From contig WARS01000011.1 of assembly GCA_008933995.1 (NCBI GenBank), positions 9,205,516 to 9,269,515 of the forward strand: a stretch of 64,000 nt of DNA, given 5' to 3'. Of the stretch, positions 1,823 through 46,844 are shown in pieces (within the stretch, counting starts at the first letter, position 1; each line of letters opens with the position of its first letter). The notes beneath the pieces are model-generated. The model was not told the DNA's origin. It did not search any database and was given only the letters and a program-made list of their open reading frames with translations. A program made the translations under genes and the position numbers. Source of the DNA: Datnioides undecimradiatus. Taxonomy: Eukaryota > Chordata > Actinopteri > Lobotiformes > Datnioididae.

Positions 1823-1893
1823 CTTGATGCATTGCTTTGAGTCGATCCTTCATCCTCTTGTTTTTTATTTTTATTCTTCATCATCGTATTGTA
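1823..1893 (-). CDS. chd2: chd2 first coding exon (N-terminus of chromodomain helicase CHD2)
   Basis: On the minus strand a pyrimidine-rich tract and CAG precede nine untranslated bases, then a double ATG at 1884-1879. The frame reads MMKNKNKKQEDEGSTQSNAS and ends in phase 2 at a GTATGAG donor (1822). Vertebrate CHD2 starts [21 protein letters not shown], so the double methionine, the basic start, the QE(E/D) step and the SNAS end all agree. CHD2 is a nuclear SNF2-type chromatin remodeller with tandem chromodomains that bind methylated H3K4. Only the disordered extreme N-terminus is in this window; chromodomains and helicase lie to the left. Identity is further supported by the neighbours: fam174b and st8sia2 follow in the order known from human 15q26. 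Confidence 0.88.
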
Positions 1894-2461: not shown

Positions 2462-2800
2462 ACTCAGAGCGACAGACGCGAGCAGCACACTAAAAATGGA
2501 GGCGCGCCATGGCTGCCAGAGCCCAGTATGGAAAACAACGACAAGCACTCCCCAGCACAGACGGCTCTTTCGGGTCGAAAAATGAGCACAAAAAACACAC
2601 GAAACGCCTAAATTCCCGTTAAAACACCGATCGTATGGTCAAATCCACTGAATTTGCATCATTTTCGAGCGGTTTTGGTCGAAAAACAGGCAAGAGAAAC
2701 GGTCTGACGAAAGCCCATGGCACCCTTCCCAAGGCTCAGCCGCCATCTAGAGCTCCTTCCTAGCTCTGAAAGCTTTGCCTTTGATTGACGTTATTTCCAT
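2462..2800 (-). promoter_or_regulatory. chd2: chd2 promoter and 5' leader (CpG-rich)
   Basis: A local rise in GC and CpG in an AT-rich setting, including an AscI-like GGCGCGCC block. On the minus strand AGATGGCGGC (2748-2739) matches the YY1 site that often sits just after housekeeping start sites. I infer transcription starts near 2750-2800 and runs left towards the coding exon at 1893. A possible leader donor was not resolved. Two short upstream ORFs are visible: ATG at 2746 to TGA at 2639 (35 codons) and ATG at 2510 to TAG at 2490 (6 codons). Confidence 0.6.
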
Positions 2801-3484
2801 TTACACCACACTCAGGTGATGTTTAAGTCCCACCCCTTTTATTATGTTTAAAATGTGCATTTATACAAACTTACATACAATATCAGCCCCAGGACAACAA
2901 GTTTAAGTTGAAACGTTTCTTCACGCTTCATTAAAAAGGTAAGACTACAGAGAGGCTGAAAAAGTGTATATTTCTTTTACACCAATTGCATCACTTCCTG
3001 CTCAGACAGGAAGAAGGACAACCAGGAGCCATTTTAGAGAGCCTTTGGAAACCATTACTGTGCAGACCAAATCCTTTTTCACTACTTTCAATGTGTCTTA
3101 CAAAAACAAGTGTGTTCATTTGTTTTGAGTGATTCGATTAGGATTTATTCAAGCACACGTGTGCATTTTCATCTACCATTTCTCCTTTATCTCACCCACT
3201 GGATGGCAATTTTCTCTGAATAGCAATGCCTGAAACACAACATTACTTTGGGGGACTCGTCAACCCATATTGAAATTTACGCACTTGGCTAGCTAGAAAT
3301 GTAATGGGCAAAACTTGATGATGACTGACACAGAGTCAGTGCAAACGTAATTAAATTTTTGTGTGTATTTGACCAAATATTACAACCAACAGCCGAGCTA
3401 ATGGACTTCAACGTTATCAAAATGCTAAGCCAATTATCCTCTTGTGATTTTCTGGTTAATTAGCTAATGAAACAAACCAGTAAA

Positions 3485-3768
3485 AATTCGGTAACATAGA
3501 CTTTATTTAAAGACAACATTTGAATATCAAATGTACAAAGGCGGATTTTCTGTTCCCCAAAAAAATATATAATTTTTCAACAAGTCCACTACATGGCCAG
3601 CAACGGTGTTCCAGAGTCCATGTTGTCGTAAAAAATAAAAATCCAAACGTCAAAGTCCAGTCAGAAAACGGTTTCATCTTGTCAAAATTTGGCTAACTGC
3701 CAAATTACTTGCAATCTTCACGTTAAACAACGCTGTCTCCACTTCAGCAATTTCCAGTTGAATGGAGT
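3485..3768 (-). ncRNA. chaserr: candidate chaserr last exon with poly(A) signal
   Basis: Starts after TTTTTTTATCCTATCAAG and ends about 20 nt beyond AATAAA (3507-3502). It contains AAGATGAAAC (3680-3671), which fits the AARAUGR-type motif I recall being reported for the conserved last exon of CHASERR, plus two other ATG contexts. A 10-codon ORF starts at 3621 and stops at 3589. The end lies about 0.7 kb upstream of the chd2 promoter. Confidence 0.6.
3502..3507 (-). terminator. poly(A) signal AATAAA, candidate chaserr end
   Basis: TTTATT on the plus strand is AATAAA on the minus strand. It falls at the end of the last exon-like block before the chd2 promoter. Confidence 0.5.
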
Positions 3769-5184
3769 CTTGATAGGATAAAAAAAGAAGGAAAAGTTGT
3801 AAGCCCACAGTACAACTGAAATGAGTAATGATTCACTGTCCAGCAGTTAAGAGTTGGCATGCTAAACTATACTGAAATTCGAGAATTTTACACCTACATG
3901 GCTAGCTTTCATTTAAGTTAGCTAGCACTGTGCAAGTGCATATCTTAATATGAAATATGGATGTTACACAATACACCCACAATTGTTTAAATGTTCAACA
4001 AAGTTGGTATTCTCAAACTAGTTTAAATTCCTATTATCATAATGTATTGATTTAGGATTTAGGAGTGTTCGTAATCCACCTTCATAACTGAAATTCATTT
4101 CAGAGTCAAAGCTGTTTCAATATTGTTTTACATCCAAACTTCTAAATCAGACATTGAATCCAACCTTTTATTAGCTTTTCGCAAAACGAATCAATAGATT
4201 TGGCAGAAGCTCCAAAGCTAAAATTCCTGGTTTTAAGTGGAAATGCAACAAACAATGCTGACACTGTACGTTCATTTAAGTTTTTATTAGGCTCTGACTT
4301 GATATTGTTTTAGTGAATTCTTAGTTATCAGCAAAATGAAGCCCACGTTGAATAAAGGCTCCAATAATTTCAAAATAAATTCATCAACTGACCACCAGGG
4401 GTAAGATGGGCATCGAGTTAGCAAAATTCACATTGTGCGTTCTGAATAAAACTCAACTACAGAGCAGTGACGTTAAACAAATTACGATCAAGACAACAAA
4501 ACACTGGCATGTGAGCAAACAATGCAAAATTCACACATTCAGATTGCTTGCCTAAATTGACAAAATGATGACCAGAGTTACCCAAGAAACGTCATGGCTG
4601 ACCAACAGATTAACACCATGATAGCATCCTTTAAGTATGAAGCAACCCTCCAAATAATGGCAATGTTCATCTTAGAGCTATTGCTCAAAATTTAAACATT
4701 TCCAATTAACTCCTGAAATACTAAAATATGGCAGTAAAACGGATTTATGTTTGATACTGATTTCAAATTTTAGGCCATCAGATTCTAGCAAAAAATGGAG
4801 GATGTAGCAACTCCTGGAGAGCGTGGCTTTTTTGTAACGTACCAGCAGGAGACACACAGAGTTACTGTAAAATAGCTTACAATTGCTAGAAATAATGAAA
4901 GTAGACACATGATAAAAAAAAAAAGTCTTCATGTGCTACCATTAAGTTATATTTTCATAAAAACCTTTATTAATGCACTCTATGTGCTAACATCTAGGTC
5001 TTTTGCAAGCCATTAGAACTAATACTGGTAGCAACTATTTGTGGCGTAAGGTCCGTTTAAAATAGGAATGCTGTATCCTCAAACTGTCTGAATGCAATTT
5101 AGGGAAAATATAAATTCTCCTCATTACATTTATGAGCTCAGTGGGCAAGTAAATAAATGAGCAGTTCAAACAAGAGAAACTTAC

Positions 5185-5241
5185 AGAGCCGTCTTCTTTT
5201 TCTTCAAATTTTGAAAATCTTCACACCAGTGCAGGAGTCCA
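5185..5241 (-). ncRNA. chaserr: candidate chaserr exon 4
   Basis: 57 nt between the acceptor CTTCTACAG and the consensus donor GTAAGTTT. The 3' half is A/G-rich (GAAGAAAAAGAAGACGG), like an enhancer-rich short exon. No coding frame is recognisable. Confidence 0.6.
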
Positions 5242-7886
5242 CTGTAGAAGAGATAAGGGACAATGAGTGATACCCATATAACCATTCATCATATCTACTC
5301 AGTAATATTAAATAAATGGACTACTCAGAGTGGTTGGCTTTTTTCCTTTTTTTCCCCAAGGCAATTCTCTGATTTAAATAGTGACTGATCAATGAAACAA
5401 GCAATTATTTGAAATCGAGGATTGTGTTAACTTTCTCGACTCTTTGCAGTAATAATAACCATAAATTCGTACCTGATTGTCTATACAGCCAATACTTTTG
5501 CTTTAAATTGGTCTAACTCTGTTTTTTTTGTTTGTTTGTTTTTTTTCAAGGACCTATTTTAACAAAGACCTTAAACCTAGATAACGGGCTTCTTTTCATA
5601 ACTGACTTTTGTGCAACCTTACAACCAGTTACTGTATTGACAGCCAACTCTTTTGCTGATTATAATTAAAAACATCCAACAGGAGTTTACAAAGTACAGA
5701 AGGCCAAACACAGCAAACAAAAATGCAATTATCATTGTTTGACATTTTCTCATCAAATCTAACTAATAATTACATCTAATTGTGTGTGTTATTTCAAAAT
5801 AGTTGCACTTTATCCTCAATCCCCTCATTCAAGGCAGAGAAAACAATGCCTTAGGTATATGGCCAGGAAAAGCACCAGGCATTTTTACTGAGGGCATACA
5901 TCACTCAAGTGTTGGGCTGTGTGGTGCATTTCTGCTCTTTTGAGGAACTCGTGCATCTTGGAGTTCACAAGTGATTGCAAAATGGAAACTTTTTTCTGTT
6001 TTTGTGAAAATCTATCAAGCTCAAACAAGACAATTCACATTGGTAACTACAAGGTTTTATCTTGATGTTCTTTGGGGGCATCACATCCTCAGGCTTTTCG
6101 TTGCTAGATACCCTGGTTGATTTTTTAACGCTACTAGAAAATAGATTTATGGAGGAAAAGCAAAATTTTGGTTTTCTATGTTCCGGTAGAGTTGCTTATC
6201 AGTATTATTTAATTAACAATGTCCATGAAATATATCCAGTAATTTATTTTGAGGGAGCAAAACTGTTATTATTAGCTATACACACTGATCAGTAAGTACT
6301 GTAAGCAGAGTAAGTAGTTAGTGTAGTTACTTTTTCAGAAAGTGTGTTGGTGTATCCACAAAGTAAAGAAATTGTTGTTGGTATTGCTGAATCTCAACTA
6401 AACCTCAGATTTAAAGAGTGGCTTTTATTATTCATACTTTGAATTTGAGGAAGTAACAGCATGCTGCTCACAATCTGACATCTGACTGATCATTTGAATA
6501 ATATTTAATGTTAACTGAGAATATCAAAAACCAAAGGGTATTGCATGGGAAATAGCAGGTAAAATGTCCATAACAGTACACAGTATTTAACTTGTGATGA
6601 AAACATGAATGTTCTTAATAATTTATTTTACTGTTGTGATGCCCTCTACAGGCCAAAAATAAAATAATGTTGCTCAAGTGCAACTTTACAGCCAAATTAG
6701 CTCATTAGCTTAATTGTTTTTTTCGTTACCAGTGCACTGCAAAATGCAGTAGTCAAACTTCATGTAACCAAACATAATCAAAAATAATGTTATCAAATTA
6801 AACTGTTTGTCCCCAGACACTCTGTCAGACTACTGTCTGAAACAGCAGTAAGAACGAAAATTGCGCTCCAAGAACTATATGTTAAATAGAATCCACCCTA
6901 GCTGAGTTGTAATTGGATTAACAATACAACTCCTCTAACATTTGAATAAGGAGACACAATGTCTTAGTTAGTAAAGGGCGGAAAGCTGCGACAGCAAGAA
7001 TGTGTACAACTATTTCAACCAGTTTGCATGGTCAGTCTATTCAAACCACAGGATTTGACGCATGGTCTGCCACATCTTTTGAGATTGCAAATGCTCCAAA
7101 AGCACTTCTTATGTATGGGACAATGTTACAATATGACAGATTAGGGCTGTAATTACATGACACATAATAATAAAGATTGTAAGGCCATTATGGGTTAGCT
7201 AGCTAATTAAACATTATGAGTGCATTATAAATCTATATAGTATTTTAAAGCAACTGAATGTTTAATGTAATAAAATATGTAATAGGATCTATCTGTAAAT
7301 GTTTTGTCATATTAACTCTAAAACTTAATCACTGCTGTGAACAATTTAGATATAAAGATAACACTGAGAGCAGTTGACAATAAAGACAAATTTGGGGTGC
7401 ATCCTATAACTTTAGTTTTCCCACAGTATGCTGTGCTGCCAAACTCTTGCAATGAAATGTCAGAGCCACTGATTAAGAAAATACCCTAAAATGTGAATAA
7501 GTTTAATTTGTTTACATAATCACTTGAAAGTAACAATGAAATGTCTCTTCCAAGGTTGAATTTTTGATCACTGATACATACACTATCATTCATTGTAGAG
7601 TGCATGCTCGCCACATCAAATACTAGATGGTGGAACTGTCTGGTTGTCAGACACGAATGTTATTCATTTTAGTCGTAACTGTGGCTAGCCATGCTATCAT
7701 ACACAGAAATTACATTAAAATTACACTTAGCTGTTTTTTTAGCCAGGCATTTCCTAATGAGTGAAAAAATACTATGCTACTCATTCCACAGTTTACTCAG
7801 TTGTTTGTTGTTACCAAAACAATGATGACTTACATAAATGTTTATGTATATACATGTATATATTCAATTTAAAAATATATACTTAC

Positions 7887-7954
7887 AAATCCTCGTTGCA
7901 GTGCGAATCACTAAAATGCTGAATTCACGACTCCATGGTGGCTAAGTTTCAACC
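7887..7954 (-). ncRNA. chaserr: candidate chaserr exon 3, with a Kozak-perfect micro-ORF
   Basis: 68 nt after a long T-rich tract ending in AAG, with donor GTAAGTAT. It contains GCCACCATGG, and the ORF from that ATG (7936) is Met-Glu-Ser-stop, ending at 7925. It is separated from exon 2 by a 148-nt intron. Confidence 0.6.
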
Positions 7955-8102
7955 CTTAAAAAAGAAAAAAACATAAAAGAGATTCAGAGCGGAAATGTGA
8001 CACCAGCACTCCCTACTGGTTACACATATGTAGCAGTAAAAACAAAGACACTGGTAAGACCGCAAAAAACATTTAAAAGCCTAGACCGTTAAAAACACAT
8101 AC

Positions 8103-8167
8103 CATTTAGCATGGGTCAGCTGATCTCCTTTCTTCTTCACACACTTTGTGAAATGTCATGGGAATCC
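8103..8167 (-). ncRNA. chaserr: candidate chaserr exon 2
   Basis: 65 nt between a strong acceptor (T-rich tract, GCAG) and donor GTATGTG. Purine-rich centre (GAAGAAGAAAGGAGA) typical of an exonic splicing enhancer. It contains two CCATG triplet contexts. Confidence 0.6.
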
Positions 8168-9563
8168 CTGCAAAATACAAAACAGCTTGTAGTTTGTTTG
8201 TTTAAAACAAAATCGCAACTTACATTGCTATTAATAAGACGTAAATTGTATTGGTTGCTATTTGTTCATTACAACTTTTAAAGGCTATTTTTAGGAATAT
8301 TTGGGCTCATTAACATATTCAGAAAACCATAAATAAGTCATTGCATATTTAGTTAGGAAAATGTACAATCTTCACATCTTAGCGTCTAAAAATGGAACTA
8401 AATTTGTCTTCAACAGCAACATCCCACTGAGAATAGCTTTGAGAGGACATTTTGTAACGTGCAGAATAGTACTAATCCTTTGGATTTAACAATGTAGTTT
8501 AAGATGAGAAAATATCTACTGTATAGTATATCATCTATTTTAATAATGTGTAGCATCTGCCTTCATAGGTGGGTAAATCAACAACCTTGTCAATAAGACG
8601 GTGATACTTACATCAATTTATTTCTTTATTTAATTTTAAAACAGTTCTTTGAAGTTTCCTTAAATGTATATGCTTTTGGTGAAGCTTTTTGCCATAAAAT
8701 CTTTCTTTGCACATTTTGCAGGTGTAAAGTGAGCCAGAAAAACAGAATTAGTGTACATATTTAAATTACTTCTCTATTCAGTACCTCAAAGGGTTAAAAG
8801 CCAACACCCTATTTTGTATTTCGAAGTATATCTAAGCTTTTAAAACATACAGGACCTTCATTTGTCAAACAAATCAAATATAGTTTATGTATTGTGGCTA
8901 CACTGGAAGAAATTTGTCCAATAGTCATATTTTGAGCATTTTGGCAACTTGTCACTATTTATTTAAACTATTTTTAATTGCCAAGTATTATGCATCTCAC
9001 ACTTAGTTAAATCTTGTTAGAAAGTACATCTGTACAGTCTATGCTGAGATGATGTGAAAATTGATCATTTTTTAAATATATATTTGATTTATAATTCGGT
9101 GAAAACCTTCAAAAAACGACTATACTGAAAATAAACAAAATTCTGCTTAAGCTTGTTGAGTTGATGTCAACAGTCTCGATACCGTATTTAAAAAACGAAA
9201 CATTTGTTTAATTTGTCGTTTTTATCGAGTATATTCGCACAAGGGCATTTGCCCTTTCAAGGACAAAGCAAATTTTAAATGCGTAGGTTGAAATAACTCC
9301 TAACTGGTCGAGAATAAATGTGTTTGTCCAAATATTAACTAAGTGAAGTCGAAACAGGGTTCGCAAACATGCAAAATTCATCGTCTAATCCACAATTTCA
9401 TGCATTTAAATCAGTCTGCGTCGTTATCTTTATTCTTCGCTGACAACACACCATGGCCATTTTTACAACACTGCGTCCAACTGTCGTTCCTTCCACCATA
9501 TTGCCATACAGCCCTGATTCCTATTTTACTGCTATTAATGTTAGTTTGCTGGTAAGTTCTTAC

Positions 9564-9840
9564 CCATTTCACAGGCTGTGTCTATCCGCCGTCATCTGCC
9601 CCGACCTTTATCGCATTTTTGGCCGATTTTCGTCGTTTTGGTGGGTCTATCGGCCGCATCGCTGCGTCTTTCCTCCTCTCCGTCCTCGTCTCCCCGCTCC
9701 GCTGCTGTGTGTGCCCTCCTCTCTGCCTCCGCCTGAGCTGATATCCTTCAGCGGCTCTGCCCACTTTGCTCTCAACGTAAGCCAAACTCCACTTCCTCTC
9801 CAGCCCCATCTAGCTAGCGCTAACAGCCGACTGAACACGA
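9564..9840 (-). ncRNA. chaserr: candidate chaserr exon 1 with CpG-rich promoter
   Basis: GC- and CpG-rich block with its minus-strand donor GTAAGAAC at 9563. The 5' end is set only by where the CpG-rich sequence stops, so it is approximate. Frames of 60-160 codons cross this block on both strands, but they have compositional bias and no recognisable domain. Confidence 0.55.
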
Positions 9841-12800
9841 AAAACAGGTTTTACAGTTTTTTTGCCCCACAATTTTTTGTTTCAAGTAACGTCAAAAACA
9901 CACATTTTATTCATTTCTTTCCTTACTTTTTAATGTACACCTGAAAAATACACACAGCTGCTTGAGAAACAGTTACACCAACCACATCAGTTTAGAGTTT
10001 GACGGTAGTAACGGTTAGATGTCGACTAACCCGTGGGACACTGATATGAAGTCATAAAAACAGTGATATCTACTCTGATCTGTCATAATAAATGGTATGT
10101 TACTCTGAATATCTAGGTAGATGTACAGGGTTTTTTGTTTGGTTTTTTGTTTTTGTTTTTGTCCAGAGTGTTTGCTTCATGCCTCCATTTTTTTTTAGCC
10201 ATATAGCGTTAAACACAAAACATAAGTGGGTCTATGTGCTATGTTTCAACCTCTGAGTCTTGCTTTAGGAACACAGGCCTTTGTCGAACCTTTAACTTCA
10301 GGGTAGCCTTGTAATGTAGCGTATTGTGTGTGGGCAGGGCTGTTAATAAATGGTCAGTGGGATGTTTATGCCATAGCTTATGCACCACATAGTTCAAACA
10401 CCAGAAGTAGTTCTTGGTATCGATAATGATGGTATTGATGTAGGTTTGCTGAACACTGAGATTTGTGGCTGTGTGCACCTCTCCATTATGGTTTCAGATA
10501 TGCTCTGTATGTGTCATGCTTGCCGTCTGTATATTACAAAGATAGACACCAGAAAGTGAAAAGAAAAGAAGAATTATCAAAACTCCTCTGAATAGGTGTT
10601 ATTGAACACAGTGTTAAAATGCTGGACAGAAGCATGTCTAGCTGACAAAATAAAATTATTTGGATTACTTGTTTCAACCATTAAAGTTTTAATAAATAAA
10701 ACTAGAAGCCCAATGGGAACAACCAAACTTGGCAAACTTCATCTGCTCAGTTAGTACAGCCTTTATTGGACAGTCCATGGAGTCTGTGGTATGCACTCCA
10801 CCCCCATCACTGGCCAATGAGATGCTTGACACAACAGCGCATGCTCTTTTCAGTGGAAGATTTCTTTAAAAAGATCCTGAGCCTAGCAACAACAGTGCTC
10901 CTGCAAGTGCATTACAAATCCAGAAATCACAGCTGAAGTGAACAAGGCTTATATTGACCAACTGTTTGGACTGGTTTTTATAGGGAGGTGTTTAGTCTCA
11001 AAATCAATTAATATCCCATAAAATCTATGTCCTTTGTCTTTATCAGAGTGCTTGTAAGTCCTCTGAATGTTGCAATGTATCTGCTGCATCACAAAGCTCA
11101 GTGATTACCAATATACTTCTCATAAGAGCACTTTTGGCTTCAGTTAAGGCAGGTTCTTAATTGTGTTGAGCAAATCATTACTATTAGTGCTGCATGCAAC
11201 TAATTTAGTTGTGCTATAAGCATCAAATATAACCATTTGAGTACTTTATTATAGTGTAAATAAATGGTCTTTAAAGTAACATAAAGGCTGCCATTTTATG
11301 TCTTGAGTGTCTTCAGTGAGCAGTGTGAGCTTTTATATAGGCCTCTGTGTCATATAAGCAAACCTATTCTTATCTGCAGCCATGATCAACACTTAACATT
11401 AAACATGTCTTTGTCTGAATGGAAAGGCAGAAATTGATGCTGCAATTAGAGAAGTACACAGTAGGGTGTGCCTGTGACACAGCACCAACAACGGGCAGGA
11501 CTGCATTCATGGGTGTGTTATTTTAGTTATTTTAGATCCAAACGTCATGTTACATTGCAAACAAATTTTGGCAATTGACATAAGAACAGGCAGGCTGTGT
11601 TCTTATATTTGCCCTTCTATTAACAACACAAATGATGCTGTATTTAGACTTTGACAAACAGACTCTTAGAGTCAAGTTTCAAAATCAATATGAAGGTATT
11701 TTCAATGTATGTAATGAGTGTAGAAAAGTATCTAAAAATTGATTGTAAACCAAAACTAAATTGCATTTTAAGTCAGTTCAAAACAGTGTAACACTATCAC
11801 TAAAGACACACTCAGAGCTGTTTTCTCTGTGCAAAGTTCAGGGCTTCCACAATGTAAGAACCTCCTTCAGTTTAAGAGTCCTATTGAATTGTGGCAACCA
11901 AATCATGTTTTGCTGTGGAAAATCCTCTCAGTGAGCAATAAATATCCATGCAAAATCAAGATATAGCTAATGCACAGGCACTATACAGTGCAGATGTAAA
12001 GATACAAATGTACAGATGTAAAAATATAGACACATTTCATATGCAGGAGCCAACATTCCTCACTTTTATAAACTACTCTAAATCATAACAATATAACTGA
12101 TCTTTTTAAATAGAAACAGTCATGGGCCTCCATTATCTTTTTATTAACTGAATGATAGTACAAATCAAACTAGTCTCCCTTGTATTTTGAGCTATGTGTT
12201 GAAGAAAAATGCAGGCTATGTTGTTACTTTGTGCTGCCATCTGCTGGGCTTTGATCAAATCAAAGGCCTCTCATATTCGGGAGTGTAGTAGAGGGCCATC
12301 ACTCCCAGTAGAAGGTGCTCAGGAATAACAGAGACATAAAACCAGAAAAAACTATAAACAGACTGTCTTGTTTTTGTTTTCAGATAAAGGGAGCTCCTTG
12401 CACACTGCAAGAAATTAGTCTGATCTAAGAGTCTGAAGTATGTCTTCAGTAATTTTGAAAATAAGTGAATCTAAGTGTTGGTTTACCCTTTCAATATGAC
12501 TGCAGATTCCAAACCCTGAGTCTATATACAGTTAAGATATAAATGGTGATAATCTCTGTCTGACAGTGTCTGAATAAGTGAGACAAAGACAGAGATTTAC
12601 TGTGTGTGCCTTATATCTATGGATTTGCTGAATGATTATCACCGTCACTGATCAATTGACTGCTTGTCACCGTCTGGTCTGGTCAAGATTTTCCCTGGAA
12701 TTTGCGGTTGTGACCCTGGAGTCTGCTGCCCTTGGAAAATTGTGTTTGCTATGTCCCATTGGTAAACAGAGAAATGCTGCCTTCTGATGCTGTCGGAAAT

Positions 12801-21327: not shown

Positions 21328-24300
21328 CTGTTGACAAAAACATGCAGAGTGTGGTTAGCTGCATTCACTGGCCCTGTAACTGTCTCCAGGAACAGAAATA
21401 CTGAATATGTTCAAGCTCTTTTCTTATCTCCTTCAGTAAGGGCAGTCTCCCTCTGGGTTTTGATATTAAGCCGGATATACAATATGCTGGAGCGCAAAGA
21501 GTGGTGCTGAATCCTAAAGAGCCACAGAAGTAAAAAAGAAGAGCTTGCCGGATACTCTGATACTCTACTGCAGACCACCAAATTGCCCCTTCAAGAGCTG
21601 TCTGCCCACAGATAATCAATAAGTGACCTTTGGTTTTCTTCTTTAATTTACTGAGTGAATGAGCTGCAAAACCTCACCCTTTTAAGAAGCCATTTAGTCC
21701 AAAAGTCTTATTCTTTATTTAATGCTGAAGCAGCTTGCAGTATCTGTAGTCCATTTTGACTTAATAATGAATTGTTTAAGTCATTTATCAGGCAAAAACA
21801 CACAAATATGAATATTAACTGCTTTTCTCTGCTTTATATCAGTGTAAATTAAACATCGTGTTTTCCACCATTGATGGAGTAAAAGAAGCAATCTGCAGAT
21901 GCAATTTGAGACTCTAGAACGTGGCATTTTTCACTATATTCTGACATTTCTTTCTTCTTGCAGCGCTATTCCTCACACAATAAAACAAAATTATTCCAGA
22001 CATTTCCAATTCAAATAAAACTGGTTAAAAAATATTGAATCGAGGGCCATTTATATTGCTGCCATTTGTACAGGAAACAAATAATTTGTTTCTTGTTTCC
22101 AGACAAAGAGAAACGTGAAATAACAGAACCCTGACTGAAAAATGGATTAATCTCACCACAATGGGTAGAGCATTCTTAATATGTTTCTTATCCTTTTTAC
22201 GCCCCAAAGCATAATTTTAGATAAAATTACTTGTTGGTGTTTGCTGAGTACACATGTTCTTTTACTGCAGGTGACTTTTAACAAGACTACACAAAGCGCA
22301 CACTCAGGCTCGTCTGCACAATTGTATTCTTCTACTTTCAGTGAGCCAGGAGTTCCTATGACAGTGAGATGCCACAAGCTGCCCTCAAGAGCAGCTTCAG
22401 GGGCAAGTTGGTCAGAAGTTCACTTGCTCCAACTTCAATTTTCCTTTCCACTCATTAGCCTGTTTCCCCAACCTTGAGGGTATCACTGCCTCCTCCGGCT
22501 GTGCACTCCGTGGTTAGCATGGAAGGTCGTTTTGAGATGCAGAGGTTGTACTATTTAAAGCAGTTCATGTGCCATGAAGGGCATACAGCGGGCAGGTTTA
22601 AAGTCCACCCAGCCACTACAGGAGGTGATGAGCATTTTAACAAGCAGGAAAGGTGGTCTAATTATCAGTGATCTGATGTGACATTTAGCTGGGGTGAATG
22701 TGAGCAAATCCTTTGTCCTCTGCTGCACCTTGATGGTGATTTAAGGTTCAGCCTTTCTGAGAAAAGAGGCAGGTTCAGGATGGTGATTCATCAGACACAA
22801 CAATAAAAAGCACATAGTCATTTTGTTTTTCATCTCAGGAAGATTTCAGGCTAATTATTTTTCTCTTATAAAACACTGATCTTACAAACTCTTAACTCCA
22901 TGGCCCCTTAGCAATACAGAGAATGTTAGTTGGGGCATAAAAATCTTATAATTTTGTCACTGGCCAGCAGTGGCTATTAGGAAAAGATCAGAGCAAAGTC
23001 TGGCTGAAGTGAGAGAGAGAGACAAGAACAGCAAAAAGAGATGCAGCAGGAATTTTATAAAACCAAGAGCAGAGGCTGTGTTGACAAAAAAGTTTCCTAA
23101 AAAAAGATCCTTGACCAGCCTTTAAATAAATCCTTTCATCATGAGATTAACAAAATATAGGACTCCTGTTATACCACAGTTTAACAGCATGTAACCCCAA
23201 TATCTGTGCTATTTCTGGCCACTGCAGCAGCCTGTCAACAACACTATCCTGAATGACACAATTTGTGGCCTAACAAATAACCAATATTTTTTAGCATAAT
23301 TGAATCATGCGGACAAATTGATCCTCAACATAAATTTATGTCTTCCTTGGAGAATGTTTTCATAACTTGACATTTTTAGAAAATGCACTTATTTGCTTTT
23401 CTTGCAGAGAGTTAGATAACAGGATCCAATACTGAACAACAGTTTTATCCATCCACTCAGCACTCTGAGCAAGCGTCTCTGCTAGTTTGCCTAGCAACAC
23501 AAGCAGGACAACAACAGTCAGGTAAATCACAGCACCTGGCTATTGATCAGCAAGAAACAGTCAAAGCATGTCACTCACATAAAAAGCATGAACTCTTTGT
23601 TGCAATGTTATTGGTGAGAATGTATTGGGAAAGAAGTGTCAGTTGGTCAGTCCACCAGTTTGGTCCAACCTTCAATTGATCATGAGGATGACATTTTGTG
23701 TCTTTGTGTGAAATGTCTGGATGGTGCTTGTGCTGGCATTAATGTTCCCTCAGAATAAACCGAGGGTGACATAAAAATATATCCAATGTGTAGTTTGGTT
23801 TATTACCAAATATCTGCAAGCATCAGCTGTACTCTGTGTTTAGTTCAAATTAGCAGTTGTTAGCTTAACATTAAGTTAGCATAATGCGTTGTCTTTTATG
23901 TGAGGATGCTGTGGTGGCAATTAATAAAACACCACTGTTCTAAAATACAGTCTTACAAGCTGCTATGCGATTTGTAAACTCTTGGTCTTGTTACATTTCT
24001 GCTTGTGTGCAGATTAGACAAAAGACCACAATGTGATAGTTAGCGCTTTTATGGCATTCTTTTACCTAATTTCCGGTCTCATATAAGCAAGCTGCCTCTG
24101 GCTCATATTCCTCAATAGTCTCACTCAGTCAGATATTGCCAGTGTGGAGGAGGGTTTGGTTGAACCCATTATCATTTCATTAAAAATTAGGAATTTAAAT
24201 TAGATTACAATTCAAATACAATCTTCATGAAAAGAAAAAAGAACAGCTGCTAACGTTTGTGGCCAGGTTAAAATTTGGGAAACCCACCATTTTTTTGCAC

Positions 24301-27300
24301 GGACATTGCTAGCTTTGAGTTTGTAGGCAAAACCCAGGTAGCAAGTGGGAGGAAAATGCAGACAAATGCTGCCTTTACTTCCTGTGAGTCAGATGTCTCT
24401 TACTTGGCTTCTTCTCATCTAACTCAAGAAAAAAAAATAACCAGAGCATCTCCCATGTTAACTCTAATAGAGCATAAATGATTGATCTGTTTTTCGAGTC
24501 ACATAAAAATAGATTGATAAAATCAACAGAATCAAACACACAAGACAAATTTCACATAATTAACAGACAGATTTTGGTGTGGCGACTCCAAGTGCAGTGA
24601 TGAGAAATCAGAGTAGTGTTCTCCCATTGACTGCCCCGGTGAGCAGTTTAATGCTCTGTTTAAAATAATACCCAGGTTGCAGATTAAGTTTATAACCCTT
24701 GATTATGCTGTTCACAGGTGTTCTTGGGAGACACAGCACACCAAGAGCAGCAGCTATGAGTCTGAGCTGCATCTTACCCCCTGACAGCGTGGAGAAGCCG
24801 CAGTGAAGGGAAGGCGGTGCGTACATCCACTGTGCAATGCAGCAGGATGAGACGGGGCCCCACTCCTGGCGCTCCTCTCCCCCTTGGCCGCGAACGCTGG
24901 GATCACAGCACACTGCCGCTGAGGAAAAACTGAAGCCACTGCAGGAAGCAGCTCCTCCCGCTAACCGCCAGCCAGGTGCTTGGAAGCCCGTTTGCACCAC
25001 CCGAAGGGTTCACCAGTCCGCAAGTTTTGTCTGCCAACCTACATCATGATAGTATTAGTCACTGGTGCAGGTTCACGCTGGGACAAACACACAGATCATT
25101 CAACTTCAAAAGAGAAATGATTTTCAACAATGATATGAATGAAACTCTATTTTCTACAGCAACAAAAAACACAGTTTCCTGGGATATAAATAAAAAATTA
25201 ATGAGTAATAAGATAAATTAGTAAGTCATGGAAATAGAGAGAAAATATAGAGAGCATAATAAAACCTTTTCTGATGCAGAAGAGCTAAGATACAAGTCTC
25301 AGGAAGCTGCTGTAAAGTGTCATTTTAAAGGGAGACAGAAAGAAATCAGCTGTCCCCACTTGATCTTCTCTGCAAGGTGTTCCATAGATTGAGACCCTGA
25401 TGGCAAATTCTGTATCACCATTGCAGAAATATAATGTAATTATCTGTACCAGTATCCAGTTCTCTGTCTTTTTGCTGAACCTTCAAACCATAGACATCTG
25501 CATATATAAACTTATTATTTAGGTGTAAGACCACGATGAGGAGAGAGAAATTAAAGGAAAACCTAAATGAATAAATTGGAGAAACATTACTGCACGTAAG
25601 CTACAGGACAGTTCATATGCTGTGGTTTTTCTAAATGAGCCAAAATTTAATATACACTTCTGATTAACTCTACGTGCTTTAATTTTAACTACAGACAAGT
25701 ATATTTTAAAATATCTTAACTGTTTGTTACATTGAGTGCCAACAATAACTGGACTATATGTCAATAAGTACTGAAAACTACTCCGGCAGCTCATGAAACA
25801 AACACCTGACAAGACACTTTTGATGAGTGTTTTTTTCTCTTTAATTTATCACCCATCTTTTATCTATATCCTCCAAGCCAGTCAAACTATTTTCCTGCAG
25901 AAAATTCTGGCAGAGTGAAATAGAGCAATCAGTGAAATTCAACTGAAAAGGAAGCGGAATGACATTTTGTTAATTGATGTTAACCTCGGCCTCGAAATAA
26001 ATGCCAGAAAACACAAAAGCCAGTAATTATCTTCATGGTGAAGCATTGCCTCTGTAGAGCGTGGCAGGAAAACACACGGGAGGGCCTGTTCTTAATAACT
26101 TTGCATACTCTAATTTACAAATGGCATCTCCAAGATCAATTTTCAGTTTTTCAGATAATCTACAGGGGTTTGTTCTTCTGATTTGTTTAGTATGGGAGGA
26201 AGTAAAGGAAAATGAAAGAAAAGATTCTGAATCATCAGTTTGTGGATCGTGGTCGTCACTGGATGGAACTTTGTGTTCTTTCACAACAACAGTTACTGTC
26301 AATATACCAAGTAGTGACAGTACCTGCTTTAGTATGTTCAAAAAGATTAAATGCAAAAAGGAAACGTGACAAATGTACCGTCCACTGACTCTAATTCATT
26401 TTTGAAAATAACAATAAATTGCTCTTGTACACCTAAGTATTTCATTTATTATTATGACACTGGAATCTGAAATTATCTATAACTAGTGCCCCAAACACCG
26501 TCAACCTGCTTTGTAGAAACCAAGCGTGGGAAAGAGATCTATATTTAGCTGAGACATTATCTCCCTATCTGATATGTGAATGCCGGGTACCAAATTCCTC
26601 AGCTTCTCAAAATGCCACGTTCCCCTGTTGTCTGCCTTCAGCCAACCATTACCGCCATGCCCCGGCATTATTATCATGCTGCTGGAGTCTAGAAATCATG
26701 ACCTCTTCCTCATCAGCATTACATACTTGGCTCTTACAAAGACAAGATTCACAGGCAACAAGAATCAATTTCAGAATAAAGAAAGAGAAAATACCAAAGG
26801 ATTTTTGTGGCCCATTCGGCCATCAATCAACTCAATGAGCTGCTGCCTGAAGAGCTACTTCCCTGCTCCATTTATACAACAACATAAAGTCAATATTAAG
26901 CAGAGAGGATGTTTCTCACAGTAGATGGATCCACTGTTATTGCATGTTCCTGTTGGGTGTTCTAACAGTCCTTCAAATCCTTGTCCTCTGCTGCTGCTGA
27001 TGGTGATTTAAGGTTCAGCCTTTCTGAAAAAAAGAGGCAGGTTCAGGATGAGTGGATTCATCAGACACAACAATAAAAAGCACATAGTCATTTGTTTCAT
27101 CTCCAGGAAGATTTCAGGCTAATTATTTTCTCTTATAAAACACTGATCTTACAAACTCTTAACTCCATGGCCCACTTAGCAATACAGAATGTTAGTTGGG
27201 GCATAAAAAATGTATAATTTTGTCACTGGCCAGCAGTGGCTATTAGGAAAGATCCAGAGCAAATCTGGCTGAGATAGAGAGAGAGAGAGACAAGAACAGC

Positions 27301-30300
27301 AAAAGAAGATGCAGCAGGAATTTTATAAAACCCTGAAGGCAGCAGAGGCTGTATTTGACAAAAAGGATTCCTAAAAAAAGATCCTTGACCAGCCTTTAAA
27401 TAAATCAACACAAATACTTGAGATTAACAAAATATAGGACTCCTGTTATACCACGGATTTAACAGCATAAACAATATCTGTACTATTTCTGAGCCACTGC
27501 AGCAGCCTGTCAACAACACTATCTGAATGACACAATTTGTGGCTATGGAAATAAGCAATATTTTTACATAATTGAATCATACGGACAATTGATCTCAACA
27601 TAAATTTATGTCTTCATGGAAGGAGTATTTTCCTCAACGACATTTTAGAAAATGCACTTATTGCTTTCTTGCAGAGAGTTAGATAACAGGATCAATACTG
27701 TGAACAACAGTTTATCCATCCACTCAGCACTCACGAGCAGCGTCTCTGCTGGTTGCCTAGCAACCTGGCAGGGACAACAACAGTCAGGTAAATCACAGCA
27801 CCTGGCTGATCAACCAGAAACAGTCAAAAGCCTTGTCCTCCACATAAAAGCTTATGAACTCTTGTTGCAATGTTATTGGTGAAAATGTATTGAGAAAGTG
27901 TCAGTTGGTCCAGTCCGCAGTTGGTCCAACAACTAATTGATCATGAGGATGACATTTGTGTCTTTGTGTAGAGAAATGTCTAGATGGTGCTTGTGCTTGG
28001 CATTAATGTTCCTCAGAATAAACCGAAGGTGACATAAAAATATATCAATGTGTAGTTTGGTTGTGCAAATATCTGCAAGCATCAGCTGTACTCTGTGTTT
28101 TTAGTTCAAATTAGCAGTTGTTAGCTTAACACATTAAGTTAGCATAGTCGTTGTGCGCATGTGAGGATGCTGACGGTGGCAATTAGCTAAAAGCACCACT
28201 GTTCCTGGGTAGGCTGCAGTCTTACAAAGCTGCTAGCACGGTTGTAAACTCTTGAATGTATTACATTTTCTGCTTGTGTGCAGATTAGACAAAAGATACA
28301 ATGTGATAGTTAAGCGCTTTATGGCGTTCTTTTACCCTAATTTCGGTCTCTGTGCTAAATCTGGCTCATGATTCTCAATAGTCTTACTCAGTCAGATGTG
28401 CCAGTGCTGGAGGGTTTTAGTTGAACCCATTATCATTTCATTAAAAATTAGGAATTTAAATTAGATTACAATTCAAATACAATCTTCATGAAAAGAAAAA
28501 AAAGTGGCTGCTAACGTTTGTGGCCAGGTTAAAATTTGGGAAACCCACCATTTTTTTGCACGGACATTGCTAGCTTTGAGTTTGTAGGCAAAGCAGGTAG
28601 CAGAAGTGGGAGGAAAATGCAGACAGAAATGCTGCTTACTTCCTGTGAGTCAGATCTGTCTCTTACTTGACTTCTTCTCATCTAACTCAAGAAAAAAAGC
28701 AAACAAGAGCATCTCCCATGTTTAACTCTAATAGAGACATAAATGATTGATCCTGACACTCGAGTCACATAAAATAGATTGATAAAATCAAGAGAATCAA
28801 ACACACAAAGACAAATTTCACACTTAATTAACAGACAGATTTGGTGTAGCGACTCAGAGTGCACCCGGGTGATGAGAAATCAGTGAGTGTTCTCACAGTA
28901 GCTGCCCACATTGAGCAGTTTTAATGCTCTGTTTAAAAATAACCACCGGGTTTGCAGATTAAGTTTGCCAACCCCTTGATTATGCTGTTCCCCAGGTGTT
29001 CTTGGGAGACACAGCACACCAAGGTAGCAGCTATGAGTCTGAGCTGCATCTTACCCCCCTGACAGCAGTGGAGAAGCATGATGAAGGAAGGCGGTGTGCA
29101 TCCACTGTGTGCAGCAGGATGAGACGGGCCTCCGCAGCTCCTCTCCCCTTGGCCATGAGCGCTGGAGATCACAGCACACTGCCGCTGAGGCTTTAGGCTT
29201 GCAGAGGCAGCCCTCCCTCGCCGTGACCAGGTCTTGAAGGCCCGTTGCACCACCAGAAGGTTCATAATCCGCAAGTTTGTCTGCCAACTACATCATGATG
29301 ATGATGATCCACTGGTGCCAGGTTACACCCTGAGACAAACACAGATCATTCAACTTCAAAAGAGAAATGATTTTAACAATGATATAGATAAACTCTATTT
29401 CTACAGCAACCCAAAAAACACAGTTTACAGGATATAAATAAAAAAAATTAATGAGTAATAAGATAAATGCGTAAAGTCATGAAATGAGAGAGAAAATATA
29501 GAGAGCATAATAAAACCTTTTCTGATGCAGAAGAGCTAAGATACAAGATCTCAGGAAGGCTGCACAATAAAAGTGTGTTTTTAAGGAGACACTTGAAGAA
29601 AGTCAGCTGTCCCATGATCTTCTCTGCAAGATTGTTCCATAGATTGGAGACCCTGATGGCAAATTCTCTGTCACCATTGCAGAAATATAATGTAATTATC
29701 TGTACCAGTATCCAGTTCTCTGTCTTTTTGCTGAACCTTCAAACCATAGACATCTGCGCCCATATAAAACTTATTATTTAGGTGTAAGATTACGATGAGG
29801 AGAGAAATTAAAGGAAAACCCTAAAATGAATAAGTGGAGAAACATTACTACACATGCTTCACAGAGGACAGTTCATATGCTGTGGTTTTCACAAATAAAA
29901 CCATAATATACACTTCTGATTAACTCTCACGATGCTTTAATTTTAACTTTGAACCATTATATTTTTAAAAATATCTTAGCACAACATTGCATTGAGTGCC
30001 AACAATAACTGGACTATATGTCAATAAGTACTGAAAGCTGAAATAAACGGCTCATGGCGACAAACACCTGACAAGACACTTTTATTGAGTGTTTTTCTCT
30101 TTAATTTATCACCCATCTGTCTATGTCCCTCAAGCCAGTCGAAACTATTTTTCCTGCAGAAAATTCTAGCAGGAGTGAAATAAGAACTTAATCTGAGTGA
30201 AATTCAGCAGAAAAGGAGCGGACGGCATTTTGTTAATTGATGTTAACTTCGGCCTCAAGAAATAAATGTAGAAAACACAAAGCCAATAATTATCTTCATG

Positions 30301-33300
30301 GTGAAGCATTGCCTCTGTAGAGGCGTGGCAGAGAGAAAACACCTGCAGGGCGGCCTGTTCTTAATAACTGCATACTCTAATTTACACAAATGGCATATCT
30401 CCAAAAGATCAATTTTTCAGTTTTCAGATAATCTACAGGGTTTATGTTCTTCACAGTTTGTTTAGTATAGGAGGAAGTAAAAAGGAAAGTAAAAGAAAGA
30501 TTCTGAATCATCAGTTTGTGGATCATTAATTGGAAGTCACTGGATGGAACTTGTGTTCTTTCACAGCTTAACAGTTACTGTCAATATACAAGTATGGTGA
30601 CAGTATAGCTTTAGTATGTTCAAAGATTAAATGCAAAAAGGAAACGTGACAAATGTGCACCATCCACTGACTCTAATTCATTTTTGAAAATAACAATAAA
30701 TTGCTCTTGTACACCTAAGTATTTTCATTTATTATTGACACTGGAATGCAGAAATTATCTATAACGCTAATTACTAACACCGTCAACCTACTTTGTAGAA
30801 ACCAAGCGTGGGGAAAGAGATCTATATTTAGCTGAGACTTGTATCTCCTATCTGATATGTGAATATGGTGCAAATTCCTCAGCTTCTCAAATGCCACGTT
30901 CACATTACATCTGCCTTCAGCCAACCGTGCCGCCATGCCCGGCATTATTATCATGCTGGAGTCTAGAAATCATGACCTCTTCACTCATCAGCATTACGCC
31001 ATAGCTCTTACAAAAAGACAAGATTCACAGGCAACAAATCAATTTCAAGAATAAAAAAAGAAAATACAAGGATTTTTGTGGCCCGTTAGCCATCAATCAA
31101 TCAGCTCAATGAGCTGCTGCCACAGAAACTACTTCCTGCTCCATTTATACAACAACATAAAAGTCAATGATTCATGAGAGGATGTTTCTCACAGTAGATG
31201 GATCCATATTTATTGCATGTTCTGTTAGATTGTTCTTAAATGTGCAAAGAATCCTATAATTGTTTGTGTGTGCATCTGCCATTATAATATAACCCTGGAC
31301 AGATGTATTTTCCTCCAATGACAAGTATGAATAGTGATGAATAACCCTGTCCTGACGGACTCCTTTGCTTACACCCAAACACAAAACAGAGCCGGCTGAT
31401 GGCCTCACAAACAGAATTCTCCGGTAAATGAGAGCAGGACCCCTGAGAGAGAGCCGCTGGTTCTCTGACAAGCACAATGTGTTTCTGCTGGATGCAGGCA
31501 CTTTTCAAAATGTCAATTTAACATATAATCATGCATTTAATTGCTCTCAGTCTGGCAGTTGGGTTTCCAACTTTAAATCATTAAAAAAAAAAAGCTTTGA
31601 CAGATTTTTCAAAAATGCAATTAATGTATTTCCAGCCGTGCGAGCACCGACTCTAAACCTGAATTAAAACTGAGAACTCAGGAAAAGCAAATGAATTATG
31701 CTCTCAGTACAAAATGTGATAAACCTAAAACTGAAACTAATGTGCTTATCCATTTCAATTACGGTCCACTTATACTTGCATGTTTTCTGATTTATTTCAA
31801 GTGGAAGACTTCCGGCAGTGAAATCACGTATGCTGTTCCTGTGAAAAAAAAATACTACCTGATAACAAAGTTGTGAGAGTCAATCTCGGGTCCGCAGCTG
31901 CTGTTCAGCAGGATCCCAGAGTTTCCCACAATGGCACAGCGCCTGTGATGTTGGTTCTTCATGGGGGATACAGTTGGCAGGAGACGGTAGAGATTCTCTG
32001 AGATGTTTGTGGTGCTGTGGCGATCAAAAACATAGTGGATGATATCTCCCGGTTTTAGCGTGCCCTTCAGAATAGAGATGTCTCTCTCGGGATCAAGAAA
32101 TCTCAGAATATTCTTCCTGTAAGAAAAGAGAAAAACATGCTCCAGTTACGAAAGGCTAGAGTCAAAGGGTCGAGTGTGAAAATGTTCAGATAATTGTAGG
32201 GAGCGATGAGTCTACCTGATGAGATTGGAGAGGGTCTTGTTGAAGGTCCACTTGCTTGAAGAGAGCTTGGCAGTGTTATTGTAGCTCGGACCAAGACGAT
32301 TTATATCTCTGCTCAGTCTTGTCACAGCAGTTGGATCAACGCGTGCTGCAGCCTTTCTAAATGAGAATGAAAAGTCACTTTTAGTATGTATACAAATACA
32401 AATGCTTTTTACTTGTTTTTAAGAAACAAAAGAATAATATTTTTATGCTGCTTTATACTATAATTGCTCTGTATTGGACCGTTTTAGTTATGAACTAAAT
32501 ATCAATGTATACATCAAATATAAAACTTTGTTATACATTAACATAACAGTTTTTATTAATAAAATTAATTGCATCTCAACCACCTTCAACCAAATATTGA
32601 ATATTTACAAATGAATGCATCCGTAATGTTAATTTAGTCACAAAATGTATAATAAAAACACTCAAAGCAGTAATTTTCATAATAATGAGCCATTTTGACT
32701 TTGAATACATTTTGGCACCAATACGTTTCTGCTGTTAATTAATTATGAAGGATTTTTCTCTTGATTGAGTACTTTTCCGTAGAGGTAGTGCTACTTTCAC
32801 TGAAGTAAAAGATCTGAATACCGCTTTCTTCTTCTCCACCACAGTCTATGTGAACAAAATCAACTGCACTTGACTTGAGCTGAATGACACTTGGAAAGAT
32901 TTAAATGCAATAAAGTGACGGTATTTGAAATTCAGCATTTCATTTACGTTTATTCAGCTTTGAGCTTCTGGCAGATGTTTTTGTTTTGACATATAGCACC
33001 AGATTGATGGATATTTATAGCAGCTGGCGTTTATTCATTTATTTATTTTTTTGCTGTAGAAAGTAATGAGACACTCACTGTGAATGACTCACTGTGTTCA
33101 AGGCTGCAAAGGAATCAAATGACCAGCTCATACAGAGAGACCACTGAGCAGTAGAGGTCTACAGCTGGTGTATGTATGTGCGTGTGTGTGTGTGTGTATA
33201 AATATATATATATGCACACACAAATGAGTGTGTGTGTGTGTGTGTGTGGAGATAATTGGATTTCAAACCTGTGTGGTTTAGGGATGAGCCTCTGCAAGTT

Positions 33301-44400: not shown

Positions 44401-46590
44401 TTCTTGCACAAACCAGCTCACTGAAAAAAAGCTGCTCACGACACATATAATATTATTACACATTACCTATATTATAAATTATTGCATTTAATCTATACTC
44501 TCTGCTAAATCTGGATGGTTTTGTGGATCAGATTTCATTTTAAGTCTATATAATACTCTGAAATACTGAATATGATTGGTTAGTTGTTACAAAACCACGT
44601 TTGTCATAAAAATGGAAGTGAATCTTGTGTGAACAAGGTGCCCAGGAAGTTAAACTTTGACATTAGATGACTTTAAGGCAGCTTGACCTTACTGCTCTAA
44701 AGTCAAGGAGTTGAAAGGTCACTCTGACTCAGTGGTTAACAACTGCAGAAAGACTTGTGAGCCCTCTTCATTGGCTGCCTACTGCACATAATCAGGTAAT
44801 CTGATTACACAGTGATAATTTCCTCTGACTTTTTTTTTTTTTTTAAATATTCTTTGGAGTCCTAAAAAAAACATGGGTATAATATATTTCAGTCTTTTAT
44901 GGCAGAAACATGTTATCTCATCTTATGACACCTCAAACATATCTTGGAGGCCAGGTACTATTTCACCCTGGATTCAGTGTTAAATAGGAATGGTTTTTTC
45001 AGTCGATTCAAGTTCAAGTTACCTGTTGTTGTATGAGACTGTCACCCCTGCGACAGGACCAGTGTCACAGCCCAGGAACAGGAAGGAGATGTAGCAGGCA
45101 GTGGAGATCAGGTTGACCAGCATGGCCATGCGAATGGCTCCCAGAGCTGACAAGTTCAGCTTCTTCACAAGCAGACCACCCATGAAGATCCCCAGACATG
45201 CACATGGAATGGCTGTCATACCTGGAAAGACAGTTGTGTCAAGACATTTTTGTTACTCTGGCATATAAATGTGTATAACTGTCCATGTGTGTTCTTGTGC
45301 ATGACTGACCTAGCAGCTGGTTTGCAGAGGTTGTGGTGAGGTTGAACTGCTGCTCGAGGTATTTTCCCAGAAAGGCTGCAAAGCCTGCGACAACTGCGAT
45401 CTCCATGCAGGCTGCCAGGATGATGCAGGTGAACACTGGGTTTGACAGAAGGTGCTTGGTCACCTTGGGGATCACTAGTTGTAAAAAAATAAGGTGACCA
45501 TTAATACATGTCCTAGCATGTTGAGTAGCAGGACAAACATGATTTTCAAATTCAATCAAATTAAAAGGACAAAATTCTGGGTTAAAAAATTTTTTTTTCT
45601 ACTTTTATACAACACATTGACAAAAAACAAATTTTAGTACCTTAAGTGACCCCTTTTCACAATGGACAACATAAATATACTGTTCACATAAATTCTAACA
45701 AGAAAAAATAAGATTTATTATCATACATTCATTTAATACTTAATAATCTCTGACCGGGGATTTGGAAAATAAGTACTTTCACTTTTGACGCTGTCAGTAA
45801 ATTTTGCTGACAGTACTTCTAATTAAATAAAATTTTCAGCATATTACTTCACTTTGAGTGTTTTTCATTGCGGTATTACTATGTTTTTAAAAGAACTTTA
45901 TTAAAAAGAGCTGAAGACTTTCCCAACACTGCACTCATCTAACCATTTTTGGTTGTAACAATTTTAGATCAACTCCAGCAGCAAACTTATAGATTAGGAC
46001 ATCACACCAAAATAGAAATATAGAAAATAAATTCATAAATATAAGTAATGAATTCTAAAACATTTTACTTCAACAGAATGTGTATATCTCTTGCATGACA
46101 ACATCAAAGCACTACATGGGATCTTGCACACTCACCCCTGAGTTGCTGACAGCAGGTGGGGCTGTTGGCAGGCTCATGGTTGCGTACAACCCCATTACTG
46201 GACTTTGGAGCCTCATAGTCTGAACTCAGAGAGGGAGGAAGCATCACTTGTTCACTGTCTGCTCCCTCCTCTCTCTCCTTGGTTGGCAGCGACTGAGGGA
46301 AGCCAAACATCAAGAGGGCTGAGCTGAAGAGTAAGGCACCACACAGGAGGAAACCTGCCCACCAGGCCCCGATCCACCGTGGGTGGTCTGGAGTGATGCC
46401 CAGATTACCTGCGGACGCGCACAGCAGGAGTCAATGTAGCACATGCACAGAGAAGCATGTTAAAAGAACTGTGGAGAAACATTAAACTCACTTGTGTCGA
46501 TGAAGATGGCGTCCACATAGAACTTAGTGCAGAGGGAGCCAAGGATGAAGCCACAGGCCGGACCAAAAACCAGTGTAGAAAAGAGGATTC
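41055..46590 (-). CDS. slco3a1: slco3a1, organic anion transporter OATP3A1 (last eight coding exons)
   Basis: Exons on the minus strand: 46590-46492, 46408-46136, 45474-45310, 45221-45023, 42941-42770, 42269-42097, 41995-41931 and 41407-41055. All phases join, giving about 499 codons of an expected 710 or so. The protein is a 12-helix plasma-membrane carrier of the SLC21/OATP family; OATP3A1 moves prostaglandins, thyroxine and other anions. Visible marks: FGPACGFILGSLCTKFYVDA, FLLCGALLF, the exact ACMEIAVVAGFAAFLGKYLEQQF block, GLLVKKLNLSALGAIRMAML, the Kazal-like Cys-rich extracellular loop, AMAQTPSVIILIRTVSPELK and a C-terminus ending NMESVL (a class I PDZ ligand, Ser at -2, Leu at 0). These match SLCO3A1 better than other OATPs. 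The first two coding exons lie right of the window. Confidence 0.94.
41458..41481. repeat. short (ATCT/ATCC)n tetranucleotide tract
   Basis: CCATCTATCCATCTATCTAT, just upstream of the acceptor of the last slco3a1 exon. Confidence 0.8.
41931..41995 (-). CDS. slco3a1: slco3a1 exon (9th), 65 nt
   Basis: Encodes TVSPELKSYALGVLFLLLRL LG across a split codon; the donor is G|GTAAGAAC. A microexon-sized block that open-frame methods miss. Confidence 0.92.
42097..42269 (-). CDS. slco3a1: slco3a1 exon (8th)
   Basis: 173 nt, acceptor CTCTTCACAG, donor CAG|GTATGT. It encodes NLTGCSC (a sequon), then PGKCPMPGCQEAFLIFLCVI, and ends QTPSVIILIR. Confidence 0.93.
42770..42941 (-). CDS. slco3a1: slco3a1 exon (7th): Kazal-like loop
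   Basis: 172 nt, acceptor CTCTGCTCAG. It encodes CISHCNCFTSSISPVCGSNG, then VTYLSACFAGC, with cysteines spaced as in OATP Kazal-like loops. The 3' end is uncertain: no good donor follows CFAGC, and the only GT that keeps the next exon in phase is CAG|GTCTTT, which adds about 14 residues (TGTGSAQRTSSISQ) where human has a three-residue NST. Confidence 0.78.
45023..45221 (-). CDS. slco3a1: slco3a1 exon (6th)
   Basis: 199 nt, acceptor TCTTTCCAG, donor ACAG|GTAACT. It encodes MTAIPCACLGIFMGGLLVKK and then NLSALGAIRMAMLVNL, with LGCDTGPVAGVTVSYNN at the start of the extracellular loop. Confidence 0.92.
45310..45474 (-). CDS. slco3a1: slco3a1 exon (5th)
   Basis: 165 nt after TTTTTTTACAACTAG. It encodes VIPKVTKHLLSNPVFTCIIL and the AACMEIAVVAGFAAFLGKYL block, which is the same as human as I recall it. 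The donor GTCAGTCA is less than ideal but in phase. Confidence 0.92.
46136..46408 (-). CDS. slco3a1: slco3a1 exon (4th): helix and long intracellular loop
   Basis: 273 nt, acceptor CGTCCGCAG, donor AGGG|GTGAGT. It encodes PDHPRWIGAWWAGFLLCGAL, MFGFPQSLP and a variable acidic loop, then CCQQLR. The PRWIGAWW pattern is the OATP family signature region. The loop is more divergent from human than the helices. Confidence 0.92.
46492..46590 (-). CDS. slco3a1: slco3a1 exon (3rd coding by human count)
   Basis: 99 nt, acceptor CTTCTCTGCAG, donor ACAA|GTGAGT. It encodes GILFSTLVFGPACGFILGSL and then CTKFYVDAIFIDT, a membrane helix and loop. The Tc1 element starts about 157 bp upstream of its acceptor side. 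Confidence 0.92.
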
Positions 46591-46746: not shown

Positions 46747-46775
46747 CACTACTCACAATAAGTTAGGGATATTGT
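46747..46775. repeat. Tc1 left terminal inverted repeat
   Basis: 29 bases matching the reverse complement of 47932-47960. Confidence 0.92.
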
Positions 46776-46844
46776 GAGAGACTCAGTGGATGTCATACAT
46801 ACGGTGTTTGTTTCACTTCAGAGATTTTTGGGATAGGGAGGCAA

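Follow-up and report, generated by a model that had tools for sequence, protein, structure and literature searches.

The region directly upstream of chd2 in Datnioides undecimradiatus very probably holds the fish orthologue of CHASERR, which would be a five-exon, polyadenylated, NMD-prone nuclear lncRNA with its own CpG-rich promoter that restrains chd2 in cis. The window, as we call the whole stretch of DNA analysed here, comprises 64,000 nt of the forward strand of contig WARS01000011.1 (positions 9,205,516-9,269,515; assembly GCA_008933995.1). Within it, the anatomy of the locus and its family-level synteny can be read directly; from these we infer orthology by descent, so that the locus is a candidate by position and architecture. 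A sequence-only reading of this DNA had proposed such an orthologue, and the proposal is supported: a distance to chd2 below 2 kb, five exons, AAUAAA, AAGAUG and synteny are all present. Its remark that few lncRNAs can be traced to fish carries less weight than it implied, because the presence of CHASERR in zebrafish and other fish is on record from two papers (PMC7798263, PMC6841665). The locus is probably one more member of a family whose occurrence in fish has been reported before.

Mouse Chaserr is described by Rom et al. (2019) as a five-exon, polyadenylated, nuclear RNA that is transcribed from the Chd2 strand and represses Chd2 in cis (PMC6841665). The same authors report Chaserr homologues in every vertebrate examined, with zebrafish RNA-seq named in the legend of their Figure 1 (PMC6841665). 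Ross et al. (2021) curated 16 vertebrate CHASERR sequences of 579-1313 nt, recognising homologues by a short distance (<2 kb) from the start of CHD2 and by a five-exon architecture (PMC7798263). According to these authors, two k-mers are conserved in all 16 sequences: a 3′ AAUAAA and a last-exon AAGAUG that is typically followed by a purine. The latter occurs on average 2.1 times per transcript, while AAAUGGA (motif 2) is less universal, being found in 11 of the 16 species (PMC7798263).

The window is most likely the chd2 region of this fish. The ORF that opens with MMKNKNKKQEDEGSTQSNAS at 1884 resembles, over 20 residues, what we take to be the N-terminus of CHD2. These 20 residues have no match in Pfam or PDB, and the identity of chd2 is based on their resemblance together with synteny. 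The acceptor of this first coding exon, at 1893, scores 1.74 by a generic splice-site position matrix. Between 1893 and 2770 on the minus strand, the best listed donor after the inferred chd2 start is AGG/GTGCCA after 2724 (-4.7), about as strong as the donors of predicted exons 2-4. On the other side of the predicted lncRNA, FAM174 (DUF1180) lies at 14.0-15.2 kb (+), recognised by two Pfam pieces, one of 69.1 bits, well above the curated cut-off of 27.7 bits, and one of 26.3 bits, just below it. Further Pfam matches mark a GT29 sialyltransferase exon at 31.9-32.1 kb (-), nearest to an alpha-2,8-sialyltransferase among the 5 solved sequences matched, and OATP and Kazal exons at 41-46 kb (-). 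In trout and pike-perch, st8sia2 is reported together with slco3a1a, fam174b, chd2 and rgma, and the FAM174, alpha-2,8-sialyltransferase and OATP families of the window match this published fish chd2 region (PMC7693511). In human, SLCO3A1, ST8SIA2, CHD2, RGMA and MCTP2 are reported within one 2.5-Mb interval (PMC3364966).

Two other features lie elsewhere in the window. A Tc1/mariner-like transposase frame (HTH_Tnp_Tc3_2, DDE_3) is open for 329 codons at 46767-47756 (+) and adjoins the OATP exon at 46104-46430. Furthermore, 22705-26963 and 26974-31236 form a head-to-tail direct duplication of ~4.26 kb with 86.0% identity, whose alignment of 4425 columns contains 292 mismatches, along with 210 gap openings that account for 328 gap bases. 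Short indels are so frequent relative to substitutions that a segment left unpolished or duplicated falsely in the assembly seems more likely than a tandem duplication of old age.

The predicted gene lies on the minus strand between these neighbours and chd2 (Table 1). Five splice-bounded blocks had been claimed on the chd2 strand between fam174b and chd2, and once the strand was read and the blocks were cut out, GT or AG was found at each of the 8 splice boundaries, at coordinates given beforehand. The other structural claims of the sequence-only reading hold as well: AATAAA closes the last block, no ORF in the spliced model is longer than 75 codons, and the last block, said to end about 0.75 kb before the chd2 CpG promoter, ends ~0.72 kb before the inferred promoter core (AATAAA at 3507-3502, core at 2770-2739). 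The start of exon 1 is approximate (~9825-9832), being placed by an initiator-like TTCAG; taking 9825 as the first base, the five blocks add up to 736 nt. At E 1e-3, the exon sequences match nowhere else in the 64-kb window. An Rfam search of the window gave 0 matches at the gathering threshold, and exon 5 had no match among phage records, as expected.

Table 1. Features of the predicted lncRNA and of the chd2 start, in positions of the window
Feature	Position	Strand	Evidence or remark
Predicted CHASERR exon 1	9564..9832	-	At CpG-rich patch; donor TGG/GTAAGA at 9563
Longest ORF of exon 1, 75 codons	9582..9809	-	P 0.0195 for at least 75 codons in 2000 base shuffles
Predicted exon 2, 65 nt	8103..8167	-	GT/AG boundaries
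Predicted exon 3, 68 nt	7887..7954	-	GT/AG boundaries
Predicted exon 4, 57 nt	5185..5241	-	GT/AG boundaries; ends with GTAAGT
Predicted last exon (exon 5), ~284 nt	3485..3768	-	AAGATGA and poly(A) signal
AAGATG, followed by A	3675..3680	-	Family motif in last exon (AAGATGA at 3680-3674)
AATAAA poly(A) signal	3502..3507	-	Strand reading and motif count
chd2 promoter core	2739..2770	-	Initiator-like TTCAG and CTAGATGGCGGC; exact chd2 start inferred
First coding exon of chd2	1823..1893	-	ATG at 1884, MMKNKNKKQEDEGSTQSNAS...; acceptor at 1893, donor after 1823

The features by which the published family is recognised recur in this model. It lies on the chd2 strand and ends less than 2 kb from chd2, whether measured to the inferred promoter or to the ATG, its length falls within the published range, and a 3′ AAUAAA is present. 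The five-exon architecture is matched by the predicted GT/AG blocks, in a region where the count of exon-like pairs is not above that of shuffled sequence. The last exon contains a single AAGATG, followed by the expected purine. Motifs were counted as six patterns in two sequences against base shuffles, with uncorrected P values: AAGATG in the 284-nt exon has an expectation of 0.107 (P 0.103), and AAGATGR a P of ~0.057. The only pattern below 0.05 is ARATGR in the whole transcript, with 5 observed against 1.5 expected (P 0.0155); one of the five copies spans the exon 2/3 junction, and we do not use this count as an argument. AAAUGGA is absent from the 736-nt model, while ACATGGA is present in exon 5.

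CpG content is consistent with two promoters, as it sets apart two separate patches. The CpG observed/expected ratio is 0.98-1.55 at 9001-9750 and 1.0-1.25 at 2001-2750, the patch that holds the chd2 start, against 0.36 for the whole window. Within the first patch, 9501-9750 combines a GC content of 0.53 with a ratio of 0.98 (window GC 0.39), and at 9751-10000 the ratio is 0.67 with a GC content of 0.41. The ratio is also raised at 3251-3750, to 0.72-0.91. The chd2 promoter core includes CTAGATGGCGGC, which we take to be a YY1-type site. In both predicted promoters, at 9835-9806 (-) and 2770-2743 (-), TTCAG is followed by CTAGATGG, after 17 and 15 nt, respectively. Allowing spacers of 12-22 nt, this layout occurs in the 64-kb window, both strands included, at these two places only; when AGATGG is swapped in for CTAGATGG, a third place (15638) also fits. 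Some 8-mer is shared in 17% of shuffles of the two promoter segments, so the CTAGATGG match is weak evidence. Blastn of the two promoter regions against each other returned matches of 9-11 bases only (best E 0.19).

How far the splice sites stand out from their surroundings bears on the view that the exon pattern is due to chance, that is, that strong-looking sites in AT-rich, T-rich intergenic DNA were picked because CHASERR was expected. Between 3400 and 9900, the minus strand contains 382 GT and 381 AG sites. Among the latter, the internal acceptors rank 1 (exon 4), 2 (exon 3) and 3 (exon 2), and the acceptor of exon 5 ranks 20. By U1 pairing, the donors of exons 1-4 rank 1, 19, 14 (tied) and 14 (tied) among the 382. 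With the position matrix, the donors come 6th, 7th, 24th and beyond the top 25, and the acceptors 1, 2, 3 and 16; this matrix yields no internal exon whose two sites both reach 4, and its high-scoring donors and acceptors are more numerous on the opposite strand. The U1-pairing score was adopted after the matrix result had been seen, because the matrix penalises GTAAGT donors whose exon does not end in G. Exons 2-4 have donors of -4.8 to -4.9, weaker than the one that closes a FAM174 coding exon (-10.7). At the loosest threshold, the region holds 8 internal-exon-like pairs; 100 dinucleotide shuffles give 7.2 (s.d. 4.7), and 40 of them reach 8. At three stricter thresholds the counts are 0, 2 and 3, with no excess over shuffles. 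At least 8 such pairs at the loosest threshold are likewise found in 17 of 18 other 6.5-kb tiles, taken from both strands and in some cases overlapping the region. As the counts are no higher than in shuffles, the splice pattern alone is no proof of a gene. The exon ends are not unique either, with 7954-7834, 7954-7815 and 8167-8017 scoring about equally, and the minus strand of 2700-9900 has 13 copies of AATAAA, so that the poly(A) signal by itself is weak evidence. Chance is nevertheless a very improbable source of the whole model. One model with a CpG-rich first exon combines the region's top three acceptors with its top donor, which we counted in favour of CHASERR, and the model sits where Rom et al. 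report Chaserr in every vertebrate examined (PMC6841665). Even if single exons were wrong, a CHASERR gene would be expected in this interval.

The blocks might instead be alternative upstream 5′UTR exons of chd2, with transcription starting at the 9.8-kb patch and exon 4 spliced to 1893. An acceptor does exist there, exon 4 ends with GTAAGT, and the best listed donor for this acceptor, the one after 2724, is about equal to the donors of exons 2-4; in mouse, moreover, the RefSeq last exon of Chaserr overlaps Chd2 (PMC6841665). We consider this arrangement improbable, if somewhat less so than chance, since a terminal exon with an acceptor, AAGATGA and AATAAA precedes chd2, and chd2 owns a separate CpG-rich patch. 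In addition, start-site, poly(A)-site and RNA-seq data are reported to show that mouse Chaserr is independent of Chd2 and that its main isoform ends before it (PMC6841665). Least credible of all is a locus that codes for a small protein, either through the 75 codons of exon 1 (-) or through an ATG ORF of 163 codons at 9453-9944 (+), antisense to exon 1. Most shuffles give a shorter ORF than that of exon 1, whose 75-aa product has a weak Ribosomal_S7 match (E 5.6e-4, 20 bits against a Pfam cut-off of 24). The antisense frame is long as well, with a P of 0.007 in whole-segment shuffles and 0.053 in block shuffles that keep local composition; it has no Pfam match. Both were considered as proteins and rejected, as basic, GC-rich sequence can presumably account for the weak match and for the open frames.

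With CHASERR as the preferred reading, the exon 1 ORF would take on another role. It is the longest ATG ORF of the spliced model, followed by one of 56 codons in exon 5, and its stop lies ~18 nt before the exon 1 donor, upstream of all 4 junctions and ~208 nt before the last. With a stop so far ahead of the last junction, NMD is expected, and the predicted RNA should be exposed to it as in mouse, through an ORF that depends on the true transcription start. Mouse Chaserr is reported to be NMD-sensitive, likely through an ORF of 117 codons (PMC6841665).

By analogy with mouse, we infer that the locus is transcribed, that its RNA resides in the nucleus and that it represses chd2. The RNA would be transcribed from the CpG-rich promoter ~7 kb upstream of chd2 and would end ~0.7 kb before the chd2 start. 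Either the nascent RNA, or transcription and 3′-end formation as such, may then lower the activity of the chd2 promoter further downstream, in cis, with the AAGAUGR element of the last exon as a contributing RNA part. CHD2 protein acting near the 3′ end of the lncRNA would complete the circuit as negative feedback. In mouse, loss of the Chaserr promoter or gene body, or knockdown of the RNA, is reported to raise Chd2, with repression acting solely in cis; the account of Rom et al. leaves the exact mechanism undefined (PMC6841665). Of three antisense oligonucleotides directed at AAGAUGR-type elements in mouse cells, ASO1 and ASO3 are reported to raise Chd2, singly or mixed (PMC7798263). Another group has proposed an action in trans, in which CHASERR guides CHD2 to promoters and so activates targets (PMC7764144), a proposal on which nothing in the window bears. 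One could also read the observations jointly, in that the compact 7-kb fish locus would keep all that CHASERR-CHD2 feedback needs (two promoters, an RNA open to NMD, one AAGAUGR element and a gap of ~0.7 kb between lncRNA end and chd2 start), and that the shared layout suggests one YY1-type input driving both promoters. We regard this joint reading as speculative and on the whole unlikely.

The find extends a known family by one species and provides a gene model for annotation. With the predicted lncRNA and the first chd2 coding exon within 8 kb, the compact fish locus could be a convenient testbed for asking which parts of the RNA, or which aspects of its transcription, restrain chd2. The dosage of CHASERR matters in humans too, judging from one report that is said to link CHASERR deletion to neurodevelopmental disorder in people.

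Among known systems, SRG1-SER3, a case of transcriptional interference in yeast, resembles the fish locus in that a non-coding transcript lies in tandem ahead of the regulated gene, on the same strand, and Rom et al. draw this comparison for Chaserr (PMC6841665). The likeness is one of analogy, without kinship: in yeast the two starts are ~500 bp apart and SRG1 overlaps the SER3 promoter, whereas the predicted fish RNA is spliced and ends before the promoter. The closest likeness is to CHASERR/Chaserr itself (LINC01578, 1810026B05Rik), known from human, mouse, zebrafish and other vertebrates. Like it, the fish model lies on the same strand directly upstream of chd2, with five exons, a CpG-rich first exon, a 3′ AAUAAA and AAGAUGR in the last exon, and its exon 1 ORF, like the mouse Chaserr ORF, ends before downstream junctions. 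It differs in having one AAGATG where the family averages more, in the absence of AAAUGGA and in its compactness: the start-to-start distance is ~7 kb against ~17 kb between mouse Chaserr and Chd2, and the gap from lncRNA end to chd2 start is ~0.7 kb against ~2.2 kb. If anything, these shorter distances favour interference as the way in which the predicted RNA would restrain chd2.
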